Shown here piece by piece: positions 30,841-35,411 of a DNA stretch of 35,411 bases (the stretch's first letter is position 1; each line of letters starts with the position of its first letter). Below the pieces are notes generated by a model. The model saw nothing but the letters and a program-made list of their open reading frames with translations, was not told the DNA's origin and made no database searches. Position numbers and translations under genes: made by a program. The stretch is taken from NCBI RefSeq assembly GCF_017464355.1, contig NZ_JAFUAG010000009.1, positions 1 to 35,411 on the forward strand, in the 5' to 3' direction. Origin of the DNA: Ruminococcus sp. GTDB lineage: Bacteria; Bacillota; Clostridia; Oscillospirales; Ruminococcaceae.

Positions 30841-30871
30841 AACACAAGATTATTTTGGAGGGAGAATGATT

Positions 30872-32098
30872 ATGTTATTTGCAAGTAAGGTAGAGGGCGA
30901 TATTGTTTATGTTAAAGATACAGAGGATAATACAGAAGAAAAGGTATCAAAGTCTGTTGCAATGAAGACAGAAGGAATACTTGGAGTATCAAGAGAGGGT
31001 GTTAAGGCAGTTACGAATGAAGAACTGATAGGTCTTTCTATGGCAGAACTGAGAATAACAAATATCGGGTGTCCTTTGAAAATTGAAGGTACAGAGATAA
31101 AAGAGTGTTTAAATAAGAATGTAACGAAAATAATAGTACCTTATGGGGTTACAAGTATAGGGGAAGAGGCTTTTGCAATGTGTAAAAAGTTGCAAAATAT
31201 AGAGATGCCGATTACTGTAACAAGCATAGGCAAGTGTGCTTTTTTAAATTGTGATAGTTTAGAAAGCATAGAGATACCAGATAGTGTAGTGAGTATAGGT
31301 AATGGAGCGTTTACTTGGTGTGAACATTTACATAATATAAATATACCGAATAGCGTCACAAGCATTGGTGCTTTAGCTTTTTGGGCTTGTCACAGCTTGC
31401 AAATTATAGAGATACCAGATGGTGTTTCAACTATAGGCGGCAATACTTTCAAATCGTGCAATAATTTACAGAGCGTAAAGATACCAAATAGTGTAAAAAG
31501 TATAGGCGAACACGCTTTTAATGGTTGTGAAAGTTTACAGAACATAGAGATACCGAATAGTGTAATAAGCATAGGTGTGAGTGCTTTTGCAGGTTGTAAC
31601 AGCTTTAAGAGTATAGAGATACCAAACAGTGTAGAAAGCATAGGTGAGGGTGCTTTTTCAAACTGTAAGGGATTAGAAAGCATAGATATACCTGATAGTG
31701 TAACGAGTATAGGTGTAGTTGCTTTTCAGGGATGTAGTAGTTTGAAGAGAATAAAGATTCCTAATAATACAACAAGTATAGAATATGGCACTTTTCTGGA
31801 GTGTACAGGTTTACAGAGCATAGAAATATCTGATAGTATAACAGAGATAGGTCATGCGGCTTTTGAGGATTGTACTTGCCTACAGAGCTTAAAGATACCA
31901 AATAGTGTGGCAAGTATAGGCAATCTGGCTTTTAATAGTTGTAAGGGCTTACACCACATAGAGATTCCAAGCAGTGTAAAGAGTATAGGAGATTCCGTTT
32001 TTAAGGATTGTAAGAGTTTACAGAGTATAAAGTGTGAGAAGGGCAGTTACGCAGAGCAGTATGCAAAGGAAAACGGTTTACCAATAGAATACATATGA
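30872..32098 (+). CDS. BspA-type leucine-rich-repeat protein, 408 aa
   Basis: An N-terminal head domain (1-75) starts MLFASKVEGDIVYVKDTEDN. About thirteen 23-residue repeats of the LRR_5/BspA type follow (pattern I-P-N-S-V-x-S-I-G-x-x-A-F-x-x-C-x-x-L-x-x-I). The tail resembles the end of Treponema/Trichomonas BspA repeats (YAEQYAKENGLPIEYI). No signal peptide, wall anchor or membrane helix is present, so it is probably cytoplasmic, unlike most BspA proteins. ATG 30872 was chosen over 30866 because GGAGGGAG ends at 30864. The gene is AT-rich. The head domain recurs in the next gene. Confidence 0.88.
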   Translation: MLFASKVEGDIVYVKDTEDNTEEKVSKSVAMKTEGILGVSREGVKAVTNEELIGLSMAELRITNIGCPLKIEGTEIKECLNKNVTKIIVPYGVTSIGEEAFAMCKKLQNIEMPITVTSIGKCAFLNCDSLESIEIPDSVVSIGNGAFTWCEHLHNINIPNSVTSIGALAFWACHSLQIIEIPDGVSTIGGNTFKSCNNLQSVKIPNSVKSIGEHAFNGCESLQNIEIPNSVISIGVSAFAGCNSFKSIEIPNSVESIGEGAFSNCKGLESIDIPDSVTSIGVVAFQGCSSLKRIKIPNNTTSIEYGTFLECTGLQSIEISDSITEIGHAAFEDCTCLQSLKIPNSVASIGNLAFNSCKGLHHIEIPSSVKSIGDSVFKDCKSLQSIKCEKGSYAEQYAKENGLPIEYI

Positions 32099-32106
32099 CC
32101 TTTAAA

Positions 32107-32140
32107 CTACCTCTCACTTTCGGGTGAGGGGTAGTTTATT
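32107..32140 (+). terminator. Terminator after the first LRR gene, copy 2
   Basis: The 28-base hairpin (32107-32134) is identical to copy 1 and again followed by TTTATT. Confidence 0.85.
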
Positions 32141-32158
32141 GATATAATTTCTGGAGGG

Positions 32159-32190
32159 CTTGTATTCATCTTAAAATTGTGATACCATAA
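32159..32190 (+). repeat. Shared upstream element, diverged copy C
   Basis: This segment aligns without gaps to 30811-30842 at 23 of 32 positions, including CTTGTA and ATTGTGATA. The -10 equivalent (ACCATA) is poor, so the promoter may be weak. Confidence 0.45.
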
Positions 32191-32210
32191 GAGCAGATAT
32201 AAGTTAAGGG

Positions 32211-32834
32211 GTGAGTACTACGCTATTCGTAAGCAAGGTATATGAAGACACAGCTTATGTCACAGATACCGCAGACAACACCGAGGAACGAATATCGTTT
32301 ACCACAATCCGAAAGCTAAAGGGCATACTGGGTGTGTCCAATAATGGAGTAAGGGTATTTACAACCGAAGAATGTATAGCCCAAGACATTGTCACACTAA
32401 AGCTCATGGGCTACCGCCTGCCCTACAAGCTAAGGGGTACAAAGCTCGCAGATTGCGTTGATAAACAAATAGAACACGCAGTCATTCCCTACGGCATAAC
32501 AACTATTTGTGATGACGCTTTTTCTGGGTGTGCTAATCTGGTATCAATCCAAATTCCTCACACTGTAAGGTCAATAGGCGATAGGGCATTTATGGGCTGC
32601 TGTGCGTTGCAGAGCATACGTCTCCCAGAAAATGTTGAAACTATAGGGCGTGGAGCGTTTGCTATGTGTGAGAGTTTACTGGAGGTCACTATCCCCAAGG
32701 GTGTAAGAGAATTAAAGCCAGCGACATTTATGGATTGTATCAGCTTGAAAAGAGTTGTGTTGCCAGACAGCAGGGCAAAGATATGTGACGGAGCTTTTTA
32801 TGGGTGTGATAATTATATCGCAGTAGTAAAATAG
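32211..32834 (+). CDS. Second BspA-type LRR protein, short paralogue
   Basis: Up to 207 aa. The head domain (LFVSKVYEDTAYVTDTADN) matches that of the preceding gene and is followed by about four 23-residue repeats (IPHTVRSIGDRAFMGC, LPENVETIGRGAF, and so on). The start is unclear. GTG 32211 lies inside the ribosome site AAGGGGTGAG (32205-32214). The codon aligned to the paralogue's ATG is ACG at 32220, five bases after that site. This suggests an ATG to ACG change or a rare ACG start. Its composition is less AT-rich than its neighbour. Confidence 0.75.
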   Translation: MSTTLFVSKVYEDTAYVTDTADNTEERISFTTIRKLKGILGVSNNGVRVFTTEECIAQDIVTLKLMGYRLPYKLRGTKLADCVDKQIEHAVIPYGITTICDDAFSGCANLVSIQIPHTVRSIGDRAFMGCCALQSIRLPENVETIGRGAFAMCESLLEVTIPKGVRELKPATFMDCISLKRVVLPDSRAKICDGAFYGCDNYIAVVK

Positions 32835-32854: not shown

Positions 32855-32881
32855 AAAAAACACGCAGGATAAACCTACGCA
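32855..32881 (-). terminator. Minus-strand terminator past the iteron array
   Basis: CACGCAGG (32861-32868) pairs with CCTACGCA (32874-32881) with wobbles, around ATAAA; on the minus strand TTTTTT (32860-32855) follows. It would end a transcript from the helicase gene that runs through the iterons. Confidence 0.55.
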
Positions 32882-32928
32882 GATAATGTTCCTTTCTTTC
32901 TCTCTATAGGATTACAACTTATGTTTAT

Positions 32929-33088
32929 GGCGTATAGGCGTATATCTGCCTTTGTTATGGGATTTTCGGCGTATATGCAGGGCGTATGATTTTGATGACG
33001 GCGTATTTTTATACGCCCTGCCGTATGGCATACGCCGTTGCAATACGCTGTTTTTCTCTATTCTATGGGCTTTATACGCCTATACGCC
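32929..33088. repeat. Mirror-symmetric iteron array, candidate origin
   Basis: Ten copies of GGCGTATA or close variants. Five read forward (starts 32929, 32937, 32968, 32981, 33000). Five read in reverse (ends 33017, 33036, about 33049, 33080, 33088). Each forward copy has a reverse partner at the same distance from the centre at 33008.5, yet the spacers between them do not match. The outer 16 bases are exact inverted copies and the centre is a perfect 7-bp hairpin with a TTTT loop (33000-33017). The array begins 21 bases past the helicase stop. Position and iteron type suggest a replication origin or an assembly site for the element's own binding protein. Confidence 0.8.
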
Positions 33089-33109
33089 GTTTTTGACGGT
33101 CAGCATATA

Positions 33110-34573
33110 TTACTGATAGCTGAAAGTCAGCGAGATACCTTTGAAGCCCCTGACATTCTTGCCATTGCTTGCGATATTCGTGGAATATGCTATGCTGTAT
33201 TTATCCTCATTCTGCTTTATCCACGAAATAAAAGTCTCTCGTTTCAAAGCAGTCAGTGCATTATCCTCACACCATTTATAGTAGCTGTCATATAGTGCCG
33301 ATGATGTCACGCACAGCTTTTCCCCATAGGTCACACGGCTGTCGTCCGCAAGATATTCGGGGATATTACAGCTATCCTGCATCGTCTCCTTGACATTGAG
33401 CTTTGCCTTGTCGGAGATCGTGAAACGGTAATTATTCGCAACTAATCTCCGAAGTCCATCATACATCCAGCAGAATATCTGATTTTTCTCAGCTATAAAC
33501 TTGTCTGCGATGTGCGGATCAACAACACGATTCTCAGGCGGTGTCAGCGTGGTCAGAATGATCATACGGCGTGAGAATCCCTGACTCTTATCATAGAGTG
33601 CTTTCGGGCTTCCGTTGCCGAAACATAGCAGACGAGTATATAGTAACGCCTGTTCCGACTGCTTGCCTTTTGCTTCAACGTCTATCGGTATCTCCGCTGT
33701 GACAAGATTTTTGATGTAGCCCGTGGACGGCAACGCCGACATCTGCATATCATCATCGACCATGAGCAGCTTATCTTTCAGATTGTATCGGAAGAAGCGG
33801 TCGTTCTCGATACGCTGGAAATTTCCTGTTATCATGTTATCTCCGAAAATCTCACGGAGAACGATAGCAATTCGGGACTTGCCCTCGCCGCCCTGACCTA
33901 TGATGAACATCATCTTCTGCCCTTTGGTGGACGGTATCAGCAGATAGCCGAGATACTCCTGCAAGGTATTTACATCTTCGGGCGTGAGAAGCTCCAGCAG
34001 GAACGTCAGGAACTTTTCGGGATAATATGCACCGCTGTTCCATATATCGGGCTTGTACCATACATTCAGGCGGTTGATGCAGAATTCCTTCCGTGGATAA
34101 AAGTTGCCGTTCAGGTCGAGCTTTCCGTTCAGCAGATGTATGTACCTTGTGTCGGGCAGAAGCGGTTTGCTGTAACAGTAGTGGCGAAGCGTGTCTGTGA
34201 TGAGCGTTACCTTTTTCGGCAGCCCGAACCACACCGCCTGCCGGAGTGTTCTGTATATCTCGTTGCCCAAGGCGTTTTCATCAACAAGTCCGTCATAATC
34301 ATAGAACCGTCCGCCGATACATTTCAGAGGGTGCTTCTCCGTGAACATCTTGCAGAACTTCATCTCGTTGATCGTCAGCTTGTCCACCATCCAGTCGGGC
34401 AGCTCACGCTCCTGCTTTTTCTTTTCAGGTGGCGGTTCGGGAAGCGGTGTATCATCAGGCGGTATTACAGCAATATCCTGTTCTATCTCAGCTTCGACCT
34501 CTGACCGCAGCCTTTCAAGCTCATGTTCTTCATTCTCCCCATTCATCAAGGATTCGTTTGTATTCTCGTTCAA
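33110..34573 (-). CDS. D5/P4-type SF3 helicase of a mobile element
   Basis: A 487-aa replication protein. Residues 1-60 are acidic and Pro-rich. Residues 100-215 resemble a D5_N domain. The superfamily 3 helicase core has Walker A IIGQGGEGKS (224-233), Walker B LLMVDDDM (269-276), and motif C around LLCFGNGSPKALYD. The C-terminus (about 380-487) resembles a winged-helix domain. Such proteins unwind phage, satellite or plasmid origins. The start is TTG 34573, eight bases after GGAGGT; it overlaps the CHC2 gene by 44 bases. There is no AEP or TOPRIM primase domain. The iteron array lies directly downstream. Confidence 0.88.
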   Translation of the reverse strand: MNENTNESLMNGENEEHELERLRSEVEAEIEQDIAVIPPDDTPLPEPPPEKKKQERELPDWMVDKLTINEMKFCKMFTEKHPLKCIGGRFYDYDGLVDENALGNEIYRTLRQAVWFGLPKKVTLITDTLRHYCYSKPLLPDTRYIHLLNGKLDLNGNFYPRKEFCINRLNVWYKPDIWNSGAYYPEKFLTFLLELLTPEDVNTLQEYLGYLLIPSTKGQKMMFIIGQGGEGKSRIAIVLREIFGDNMITGNFQRIENDRFFRYNLKDKLLMVDDDMQMSALPSTGYIKNLVTAEIPIDVEAKGKQSEQALLYTRLLCFGNGSPKALYDKSQGFSRRMIILTTLTPPENRVVDPHIADKFIAEKNQIFCWMYDGLRRLVANNYRFTISDKAKLNVKETMQDSCNIPEYLADDSRVTYGEKLCVTSSALYDSYYKWCEDNALTALKRETFISWIKQNEDKYSIAYSTNIASNGKNVRGFKGISLTFSYQ

Positions 34574-35123
34574 TCCTGTCTACCTCCGTTTTTATTTCTT
34601 GCTGCTGCACCACATCGGTGCGATTGAATGTTTCAAGCAGATACCACGCATACTCGATATGATGAACAGCGTAAACATACCGTCCGTCTATTTCATCATC
34701 GGGAGCTTTCGGAGCAAAGCGTATTTTGTACTTATCCAGCAAAGTGTAGTATCGGAGCAGTATGTCATACATTCGCTCTATATTCGCTTGCTCGGCTTTT
34801 TGCTTGACAATTTCCTGCCGCCGTCTGTTTACTGCCGTCATATCGGGTGGCTTATCCACATCAAGTCCGAGACTGAAATCATTGCTTAACTGCTTCACGG
34901 CTTCGATAGGTGCCAGCCCGAAAAGCTCCTGCACCAGCCTGATAACATCGCCGTGTGCCTGACAACCGAAGCAGTAATAGTGGTCATCATAGAGTTTCAT
35001 AGACGGTGTGCGGTCATGATGAAACGGACAGTTCGCCATGTTGCTCCTATGTACCTCAACACCGTAATGACGGGCAGCGGTCGGAACATCGACAAGCTCT
35101 TTTACTTCTTCAAAAATAGTCAT
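34530..35123 (-). CDS. CHC2 zinc-finger protein, primase-like N-domain
   Basis: A 197-aa protein with the DnaG-type zinc domain: Cys32, His35, Cys51 and Cys54 in NCPFHHDRTPS and YYCFGCQAHGD. The rest (80-197) is helical and coiled. The catalytic TOPRIM domain of DnaG is absent, so it probably recognises DNA and needs a catalytic partner elsewhere. GGAGGT lies before the ATG. It is the first gene of the minus-strand pair and overlaps the helicase start, so the two are co-translated. Confidence 0.87.
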   Translation of the reverse strand: MTIFEEVKELVDVPTAARHYGVEVHRSNMANCPFHHDRTPSMKLYDDHYYCFGCQAHGDVIRLVQELFGLAPIEAVKQLSNDFSLGLDVDKPPDMTAVNRRRQEIVKQKAEQANIERMYDILLRYYTLLDKYKIRFAPKAPDDEIDGRYVYAVHHIEYAWYLLETFNRTDVVQQQEIKTEVDRIEREYKRILDEWGE

Positions 35124-35141
35124 GTTTTACCTCCATATGAC

Positions 35142-35170
35142 TTGAAACATATAGCGTTTTGTGCTATAAT
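35142..35170 (+). promoter_or_regulatory. Promoter of the last gene, extended -10
   Basis: TTGAAA (35142-35147), 17 bases and TATAAT (35165-35170), with TGC before the -10. It lies in the 82-base gap between the divergent starts. Confidence 0.75.
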
Positions 35171-35205
35171 ATATTTTGGAAAATTATGTGACAGGAGTGA
35201 AAGCT

Positions 35206-35403
35206 GTGTACTGTGATTTTAGTAATGTAACGGATATTCTTTATAGAAACAGAAAGTCATCTAAATACATTACCTACAACAATATCGTGAACACATTGTT
35301 CGGTACATATTTAAGGGATAATAATATCTATGAATTTCCTGATTATACGCTTACTAAACTCCATAAAGGCAGCATCGGCGTATCTCCTGAATTAAAAGAC
35401 TAA
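35206..35403 (+). CDS. Hypothetical small protein, 65 aa
   Basis: Not recognised. A Tyr-, Asn- and Thr-rich soluble protein, divergent from the CHC2/helicase pair. GTG 35206 follows AGGAGTGA with good spacing; the frame is open upstream to TTG 35176 without a ribosome site. The segment YITYNNIVNTLFGTYLRDN could be a helical DNA-contact region, which would suit a regulator of the element, but this is a guess. It ends 8 bases before the window edge. Confidence 0.6.
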   Translation: MYCDFSNVTDILYRNRKSSKYITYNNIVNTLFGTYLRDNNIYEFPDYTLTKLHKGSIGVSPELKD

Positions 35404-35411
35404 TATCAAGA

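Follow-up and report, generated by a model that had tools for sequence, protein, structure and literature searches.

We analysed a 35,411-nucleotide window, the whole of contig NZ_JAFUAG010000009.1 of a Ruminococcus sp. assembly (GCF_017464355.1), near whose right end ten seven-base words of the type GGCGTAT stand in mirror order directly 3' of a gene for a P4/D5-family helicase. We consider it very probable that this array is the replication origin of an integrative mobilizable element and that it is bound by the winged helix of the element's own helicase, a protein resembling the Rep helicase of staphylococcal pathogenicity islands (SaPI). The reading is based on conserved position and spacing, concerted changes of the words, covariation between protein and word, and the predicted fold of the helicase. 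Across related elements the spacing is kept while the word and the putative DNA-reading tip of the helicase change together.

From these observations we infer a model of binding, two rings, melting and replication. The C-terminal winged helix would bind each GGCGTAT in double-stranded DNA, with S464, T465, N466 and N473 of its beta-hairpin reading the last two letters of the word. With five words per arm, the array would probably bring together two helicase assemblies of opposite orientation; these would open the duplex between or next to them and move off both ways, and a neighbouring CHC2 protein would probably take part in priming. P4/D5-family helicases are hexamers in solved relatives. 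An initiator that forms rings and assembles in both directions, as suggested in the sequence-only reading that preceded this work, would fit a SaPI-Rep-like helicase by analogy.

Order and spacing of the words

The 160-base block (positions 32929-33088) holds ten words, five per strand, of which nine are exact and one reads AGCGTAT; the only other exact GGCGTAT in the whole 35.4 kb is at 35377. Successive gaps between words are 8, 31, 13, 19, 11, 19, 13, 31 and 8, a register exactly mirrored about an axis at 33008.5, and the outer edges of the five pairs lie 8.5, 27.5, 40.5, 71.5 and 79.5 bases from this axis, exactly so in every pair. The outer tandem pair recurs as an exact 16-base inverted copy (GGCGTATAGGCGTATA). 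The mirror of ten iterons, the outer inverted copy and the pairwise distances had all been described from the sequence alone and were confirmed here, one distance being refined from "about 40" to 40.5. This order is far beyond chance: in a model placing the inner words of one arm with gaps of at least 8 in a 71-bp span (11,480 placements), 0 of 400,000 random draws gave mirrored gaps, with overlapping-word draws scored as misses. The array lies outside the helicase gene, 21 bases from its stop codon and directly 3' of it; an 85-codon open reading frame (ORF; 33038-33295, + strand), called mechanically, overlaps the array and has no sign of being a gene.

To compare relatives, 40 loci were collected via helicase search and set against a template with words at positions 0, 8, 39, 52 and 71 of each arm. 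Ten word-like sites stand at the template positions in 16 loci (L033-L038, L040-L047, L050 and L055), some of these sites deviating at letters 1-2. Seven follow the plan with missing or shifted words (L039, L048, L049 and L051-L054, of which L053 and L054 are alike). The other 17 (L056-L072), mostly with distant helicases, are off template: several carry inverted repeats that are shorter and built of other words, none are seen by eye in L056 and L071, and L072 is a fragment. The expectation that homologous elements carry the array thus held, in the same place 3' of the helicase gene.

Mirror identity was calculated for 19 distinct template arrays (picked from 117 records by template fit, so that the lack of arm insertions and deletions and part of the word identity are given by construction; two of them, L074 and L077, are remnants in genome G063) and came to 585/665 in the words and 318/817 in the spacers. 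The innermost words of template arrays face each other across a centre of 4-5 bp. Letters 3-5 (CGT) are near-invariant (187, 190 and 189 of 190), and letters 6-7 vary by lineage, ending in AT, GT, GC, AC, CT or CC and changing in concert. In a less selected set of 46 arrays, with words assigned by eye, 30 have both outer pairs according to a pair finder that also accepts stray pairs (e.g. L081, L154). Of these, 20 span 160-162 bp and ten span 130-151 or 169 bp. Relative to 161, the shortfall of the shorter spans is close to one, two or three turns of the helix (post hoc p about 0.01; 8 length variants, with L170 and L171 near kin and L044, at 169 bp with an extra tandem copy, left out).

The earlier proposal that selection holds the words and their spacing and not a simple palindrome agrees with what relatives keep. 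Its companion claim of unmatched spacers stands for the window, with 14 of 45 mirror pairs matching, and needs qualification across relatives, where spacer mirror similarity is 0.352 against 0.258 in shuffles (0 of 1000 shuffles as high); the spacers are faintly mirror-similar and so not wholly free.

Read as a structured single strand, the array would be a long hairpin or cruciform, like the 100-nt stem-loop 3' of the replication gene of plasmid pRN1, or would act in the helicase transcript as an RNA structure or terminator, an alternative that we regard as improbable. As single-stranded DNA it does fold far better than shuffles (z -7.6), terminator-like stems occur (three against 0.3 expected), and in PMC4234260 a stem-loop in the corresponding position is reported to be required by pRN1. 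However, any inverted array folds well, and words paired across the mirror in the 19 template arrays resemble each other no more (0.880) than words not so paired (0.893), which a factor reading one word in duplex DNA explains and pairing does not. A mismatch is present in 57 of 95 mirror word pairs, the words within an arm are all spelled alike, something that pairing by itself would not demand, and no Rfam match reached the gathering score. With mirror pairing broken and no such match, the hairpin or RNA reading is disfavoured. Of the "central hairpin" proposed before, the innermost inverted word pair exists and its pairing is not kept among relatives.

Correspondence between helicase tail and word

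The neighbouring gene had been taken for a D5-type helicase from its sequence, and profile matches bear this out (TIGR01613, 2.4e-31, with a score of 108.7 equal to the cut-off; Pfam DUF5906, 3.4e-17). Its predicted fold is that of a P4/D5 superfamily 3 (SF3) helicase with a C-terminal winged helix, as in SaPI Rep and poxvirus D5.

Covariation between word letters and 425 helicase columns was scored in 23 representatives (L050, with too short a tail, and L004, with a mixed array, were dropped) by association z-scores from shuffled labels, uncorrected for kinship, the control being the comparison between columns. N466 ranked first of the 425 columns for letter 7, as did N473 for letter 6, and of the 20 columns associated most strongly with the word as a whole, 8 fell in the last 32 residues against 1.5 expected. 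When CHC2 columns were included (10 representatives, 637 columns), N473 and N466 were still first for their letters. Words ending in T go with N466 in 28 of 28 rows, while of the 17 rows with words ending in C, 12 have H466, 4 have N and 1 has K. In the mixed array of L004/L035 (GGCGTAT and GGCGTAC) the helicase has K466 instead of N or H.

On a tree of helicase cores, which carries long-branch warnings, the words need 15 changes (minimum possible 6, shuffled mean 25.8). The helicases of L006 and L040 share 337 of 355 core residues and 15 of 32 tail residues and have different words; conversely, L006 and L052 share 29 of 32 tail residues and the same word on different cores, as do L049 and L089 (26 of 32). 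Such apparent natural exchanges of tail and word are the clearest sign, in sequence comparison, that the helicase tail may read the word. Pairs on supported branches ran in the predicted direction in 3.9 of 5 for letter 7 C with H466 and in 4.6 of 5 for letter 6 G with H or R473 (a few of the pairings having one opposite); for residue 464 the values were 4.9 of 5 for letter 6 A with S464 and T or N465, 2.8 of 3 for C with T464 and 2.4 of 5 for G with D464. Words predicted before the DNA was seen were right at letter 7 in 5 of 5 loci and at letter 6 in 3 of 5 (failing in L172 and L173), most of these loci belonging to clades sampled before. For L170 and L171 the words, judged from the tail and not written down beforehand, both matched.

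Several results weigh against the array being an origin read by the helicase tail. For letter 7 alone, 3 of the 20 top columns lie in the tail (p 0.18), and once CHC2 is added (10 representatives), F484 and not N466 ranks first for the word as a whole, with CHC2 T179 third. Exceptions to the N/H rule at residue 466 are the L008/L093/L096/L177 clade, with N466 and AC words, and L104, with K. Independent supported pairs are too few for significance, and since tail and array are adjacent, some joint transfer by recombination is expected without contact. Inner words are missing in some relatives (L039, L049). A free-standing plasmid form was not found in the plasmid search, where the sole match above 60% identity lies within a 353-kb plasmid with its own listed replicon. 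Finally, SaPI and related phage-inducible chromosomal island (PICI) origins have an AT-rich stretch between their iteron sets, where the array has a centre of 4-5 bp and no such stretch.

The array might instead be an operator or partition-type site read by a relaxosome protein, Xis, the CHC2 protein or a small downstream product, while replication begins at another place. In favour of such a site, the adjacency of helicase and array yields linkage anyway, and the element encodes a further DNA-binding protein, NikA/MobC. We give it little weight: recombination genes vary among elements sharing the array plan (serine type in L034 and L048, tyrosine type in L042), and word letters track the helicase wing more than other parts of the helicase or CHC2 in a comparison that covered helicase and CHC2 columns (CHC2 in 10 representatives). 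Of the array binders suggested earlier, CHC2 has a link to the word overall no stronger than that of the helicase tail (in these 10 representatives only), and the product of the gene at 35206 is unlikely, being the start of a STAND-type NTPase gene.

Returning to the helicase as initiator, we put forward a finer scheme tentatively, judging its chances a little short of even. In it, letter 6 would be set by wing residues 464, 465 and 473 and letter 7 by residue 466, tail and origin would be exchanged as one cassette, and the mirror geometry, its span changing by nearly whole turns of the helix, would hold two opposed rings in a defined rotational phase. If true, the family would contain a natural code, readable from amino acid to base, by which a hexameric D5-type helicase recognises its origin. 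Origin finding by D5/P4-type helicases and their two-ring setting are known mainly from a few satellites and viruses; sets of near-identical natural helicases, in which the DNA-reading tip varies along with the origin word, on an origin geometry fixed almost to the base, would make recognition, ring placement and the compatibility of co-resident elements testable with natural parts. The array also provides a signature by which probable origins of mobilizable elements could be recognised in Oscillospiraceae sequences.

Host elements and known origins

The helicase-array block occurs in mobile elements of gut and rumen bacteria, together with NikA/MobC, STAND-type NTPase, relaxase and CHC2 genes before it and recombinase genes after the array. 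The genes identified encode a MobA/VirD2-type relaxase (L033), a NikA/MobC protein and STAND-type NTPase (L034), CHC2 (L042) and, past the array, recombinases of serine type (L034, L048) or a tyrosine integrase (L042); the recombinase type of L033 and L049 (serine) and L043 (tyrosine) was judged from like ORF starts, and an Xis-like protein by eye. From their relaxase, NikA/MobC and recombinase genes we class the relatives as putative integrative mobilizable elements; the window contig ends before the corresponding genes. In Ruminococcus albus 7 the block is present on plasmid pRUMAL02 and on the chromosome in near-identical, overlapping stretches (100% over 14,455 bp and 99.99% over 18,470 bp, about 32 kb in total; L143/L144, L168/L169), with one end of the element at C2:261546 and the other beyond the approximately 32 kb covered.

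The least probable of the alternatives, which we regard as very unlikely, is that the array is a site of recombination or attachment, or the decayed end of a transposon. Homology of the window to related elements does stop 45 bases past the array, at 32884 (it continues rightward up to the contig end), and G063 contains repeated array copies without intact helicase. Against this, relatives' elements run on past the array into more genes including recombinases, and the identical R. albus 7 copies go about 7 kb beyond it on that side. An attachment site only was rejected, since the array stays with its helicase while serine and tyrosine recombinases differ and the elements extend past it; the earlier concern that the array might be such a site, or part of a gene, is answered for the attachment site and, as the array lies outside it, for the helicase gene.

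Phage P4 alpha is a P4-family helicase acting on repeated words, with a fused primase and two separate cis sites, ori and crr. It is named with its cognate ori in PMC6092414. The sequence-only reading knew of no described origin of this plan, which does not hold for the kind of origin: SaPI/PICI origins also lie directly 3' of the gene for a Rep helicase of P4-family fold, with short iterons in two sets, and are recognised by the Rep C-terminal domain (PMC6092414, PMC7581432). The position of the array, a putative origin, matches this layout. Unlike them, the array has five words per arm in exact mirror register, and its family travels with relaxase, MobC/NikA, serine or tyrosine recombinases and a separate CHC2 protein. 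The D5-family helicase Cch2 of staphylococcal cassette chromosome mec (SCCmec) likewise has repeats downstream of its gene and binds specifically those between that gene and a serine-recombinase gene, but is described as needing three short direct repeats, with inverted repeats dispensable (PMC7581432), against ten mirror-ordered words here. In the phage-inducible chromosomal island-like element (PLE) of Vibrio cholerae, the RepA initiator and origin iterons swap together between backbones, with specificity swapping inside repA (PMC8263062); initiator and origin modules are exchanged together there too, but the initiator is a RepA_N protein, not a helicase, and has three iterons of about 30 bp. 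pRN1 shares an SF3 helicase with winged helix and an essential non-coding stretch just 3' of its replication gene; there a stem-loop is required (PMC4234260), whereas relatives of the array do not keep pairing. A RepA/RepE-type iteron origin (Rep_3/RepA initiator, direct iterons) was rejected, the neighbour being a P4-family helicase and the word sets mutually inverted. The mirror array was not described in the literature searched, as judged by title or abstract start among the matches listed; origins of this kind are known, whereas that literature appears to contain no account of the exact mirror plan, of the elements carrying it or of the tail-word correspondence.

Setting in the window and further arrays

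Table 1. Positions of the array, its words and neighbouring features in the window.
Feature	Position	Strand	Remarks
Mirror array of ten iterons, probable replication origin	32929..33088	both
Outer tandem pair, words 1 and 2	32929..32944	+	GGCGTATAGGCGTATA; words start at 32929 and 32937
Iteron 3	32968..32974	+	GGCGTAT
Iteron 4	32981..32987	+	GGCGTAT
Iteron 5, innermost	33000..33006	+	GGCGTAT
Iteron 5', innermost	33011..33017	-	GGCGTAT
Iteron 4'	33030..33036	-	GGCGTAT
Iteron 3'	33043..33049	-	AGCGTAT, one mismatch
Outer tandem pair, words 2' and 1'	33073..33088	-	words start at 33074 and 33082
Stretch homologous to related elements	32884..35411		89% to L034
Terminator-like hairpin past the array, along helicase transcription	32861..32881	-	consensus match only
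P4/D5-family helicase gene (DUF5906, TIGR01613), probable initiator	33110..34573	-	487 aa
Helicase residues 456-487, end of C-terminal winged helix	33113..33208	-	beta-hairpin S464, T465, N466, N473
CHC2 zinc-finger protein gene (DnaG-type zinc ribbon)	34530..35123	-	upstream partner of helicase

The left part of the window, to about 32.8 kb, is chromosome-like and encodes RuvB, EPSP synthase, ABC transporters, phosphoglucomutase and others, with leucine-rich repeat genes near its right edge. Two of these, of BspA type, occupy 30866-32834; the second stops 95 bases short of the array, its end near the start of element homology. At the other side, 35176-35403 contains the start of the STAND-type NTPase gene (779 residues in L034, with intact copies in relatives), whose reading frame in the window is closed after 75 codons, near where the contig ends.

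In either arm, at many loci, the 24-bp spacer separating word 2 from word 3 contains by eye a degenerate box, AAAnnnCGTAAATACGnnGTTTT, which is nearly palindromic and perhaps a second protein site or melting element. The L049 element, with GGCGTGC words, is on a contig binned as Alistipes (Bacteroidota), and its helicase core is identical to that of the window at 323 of 356 residues, suggesting recent transfer or mis-binning.

A degenerate mirror pattern matched 6 of 396 family genomes (1 genome when read backwards), five of them beside a helicase of the same family and the sixth being G063; the strict pattern misses many arrays found via the helicase, so that six genomes are not a census. G063 has six pattern places (five listed), of which L140 and L142 are without a helicase match by tblastn and the others adjoin broken helicase ends. 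Its many dispersed copies (L073-L078, L138-L142), some of them half arrays with broken helicase C-terminal pieces, carry two word types, GGCGTGT and GGTGTCT; helicase searches gave fragments only, and the copies resemble repeated origin remnants.

Viral relatives were not confirmed by tblastn in IMG/VR. Of 43 phage records matching the helicase, four did so over at least 80% of its length (39-47% identity), and all four are unannotated human-faecal contigs; the ten-word array was not seen by eye in L164-L166, from three of these, and L163 ends at the helicase. The mirror pattern matched 4 IMG/VR contigs, three of which were judged chance by eye. The fourth, L188, is without a tblastn match to these helicases and may be a parallel case, with GGCGTGT repeats in both orientations (L188:9380-9720) at and past the 3' end of a 749-residue Prim-Pol gene.
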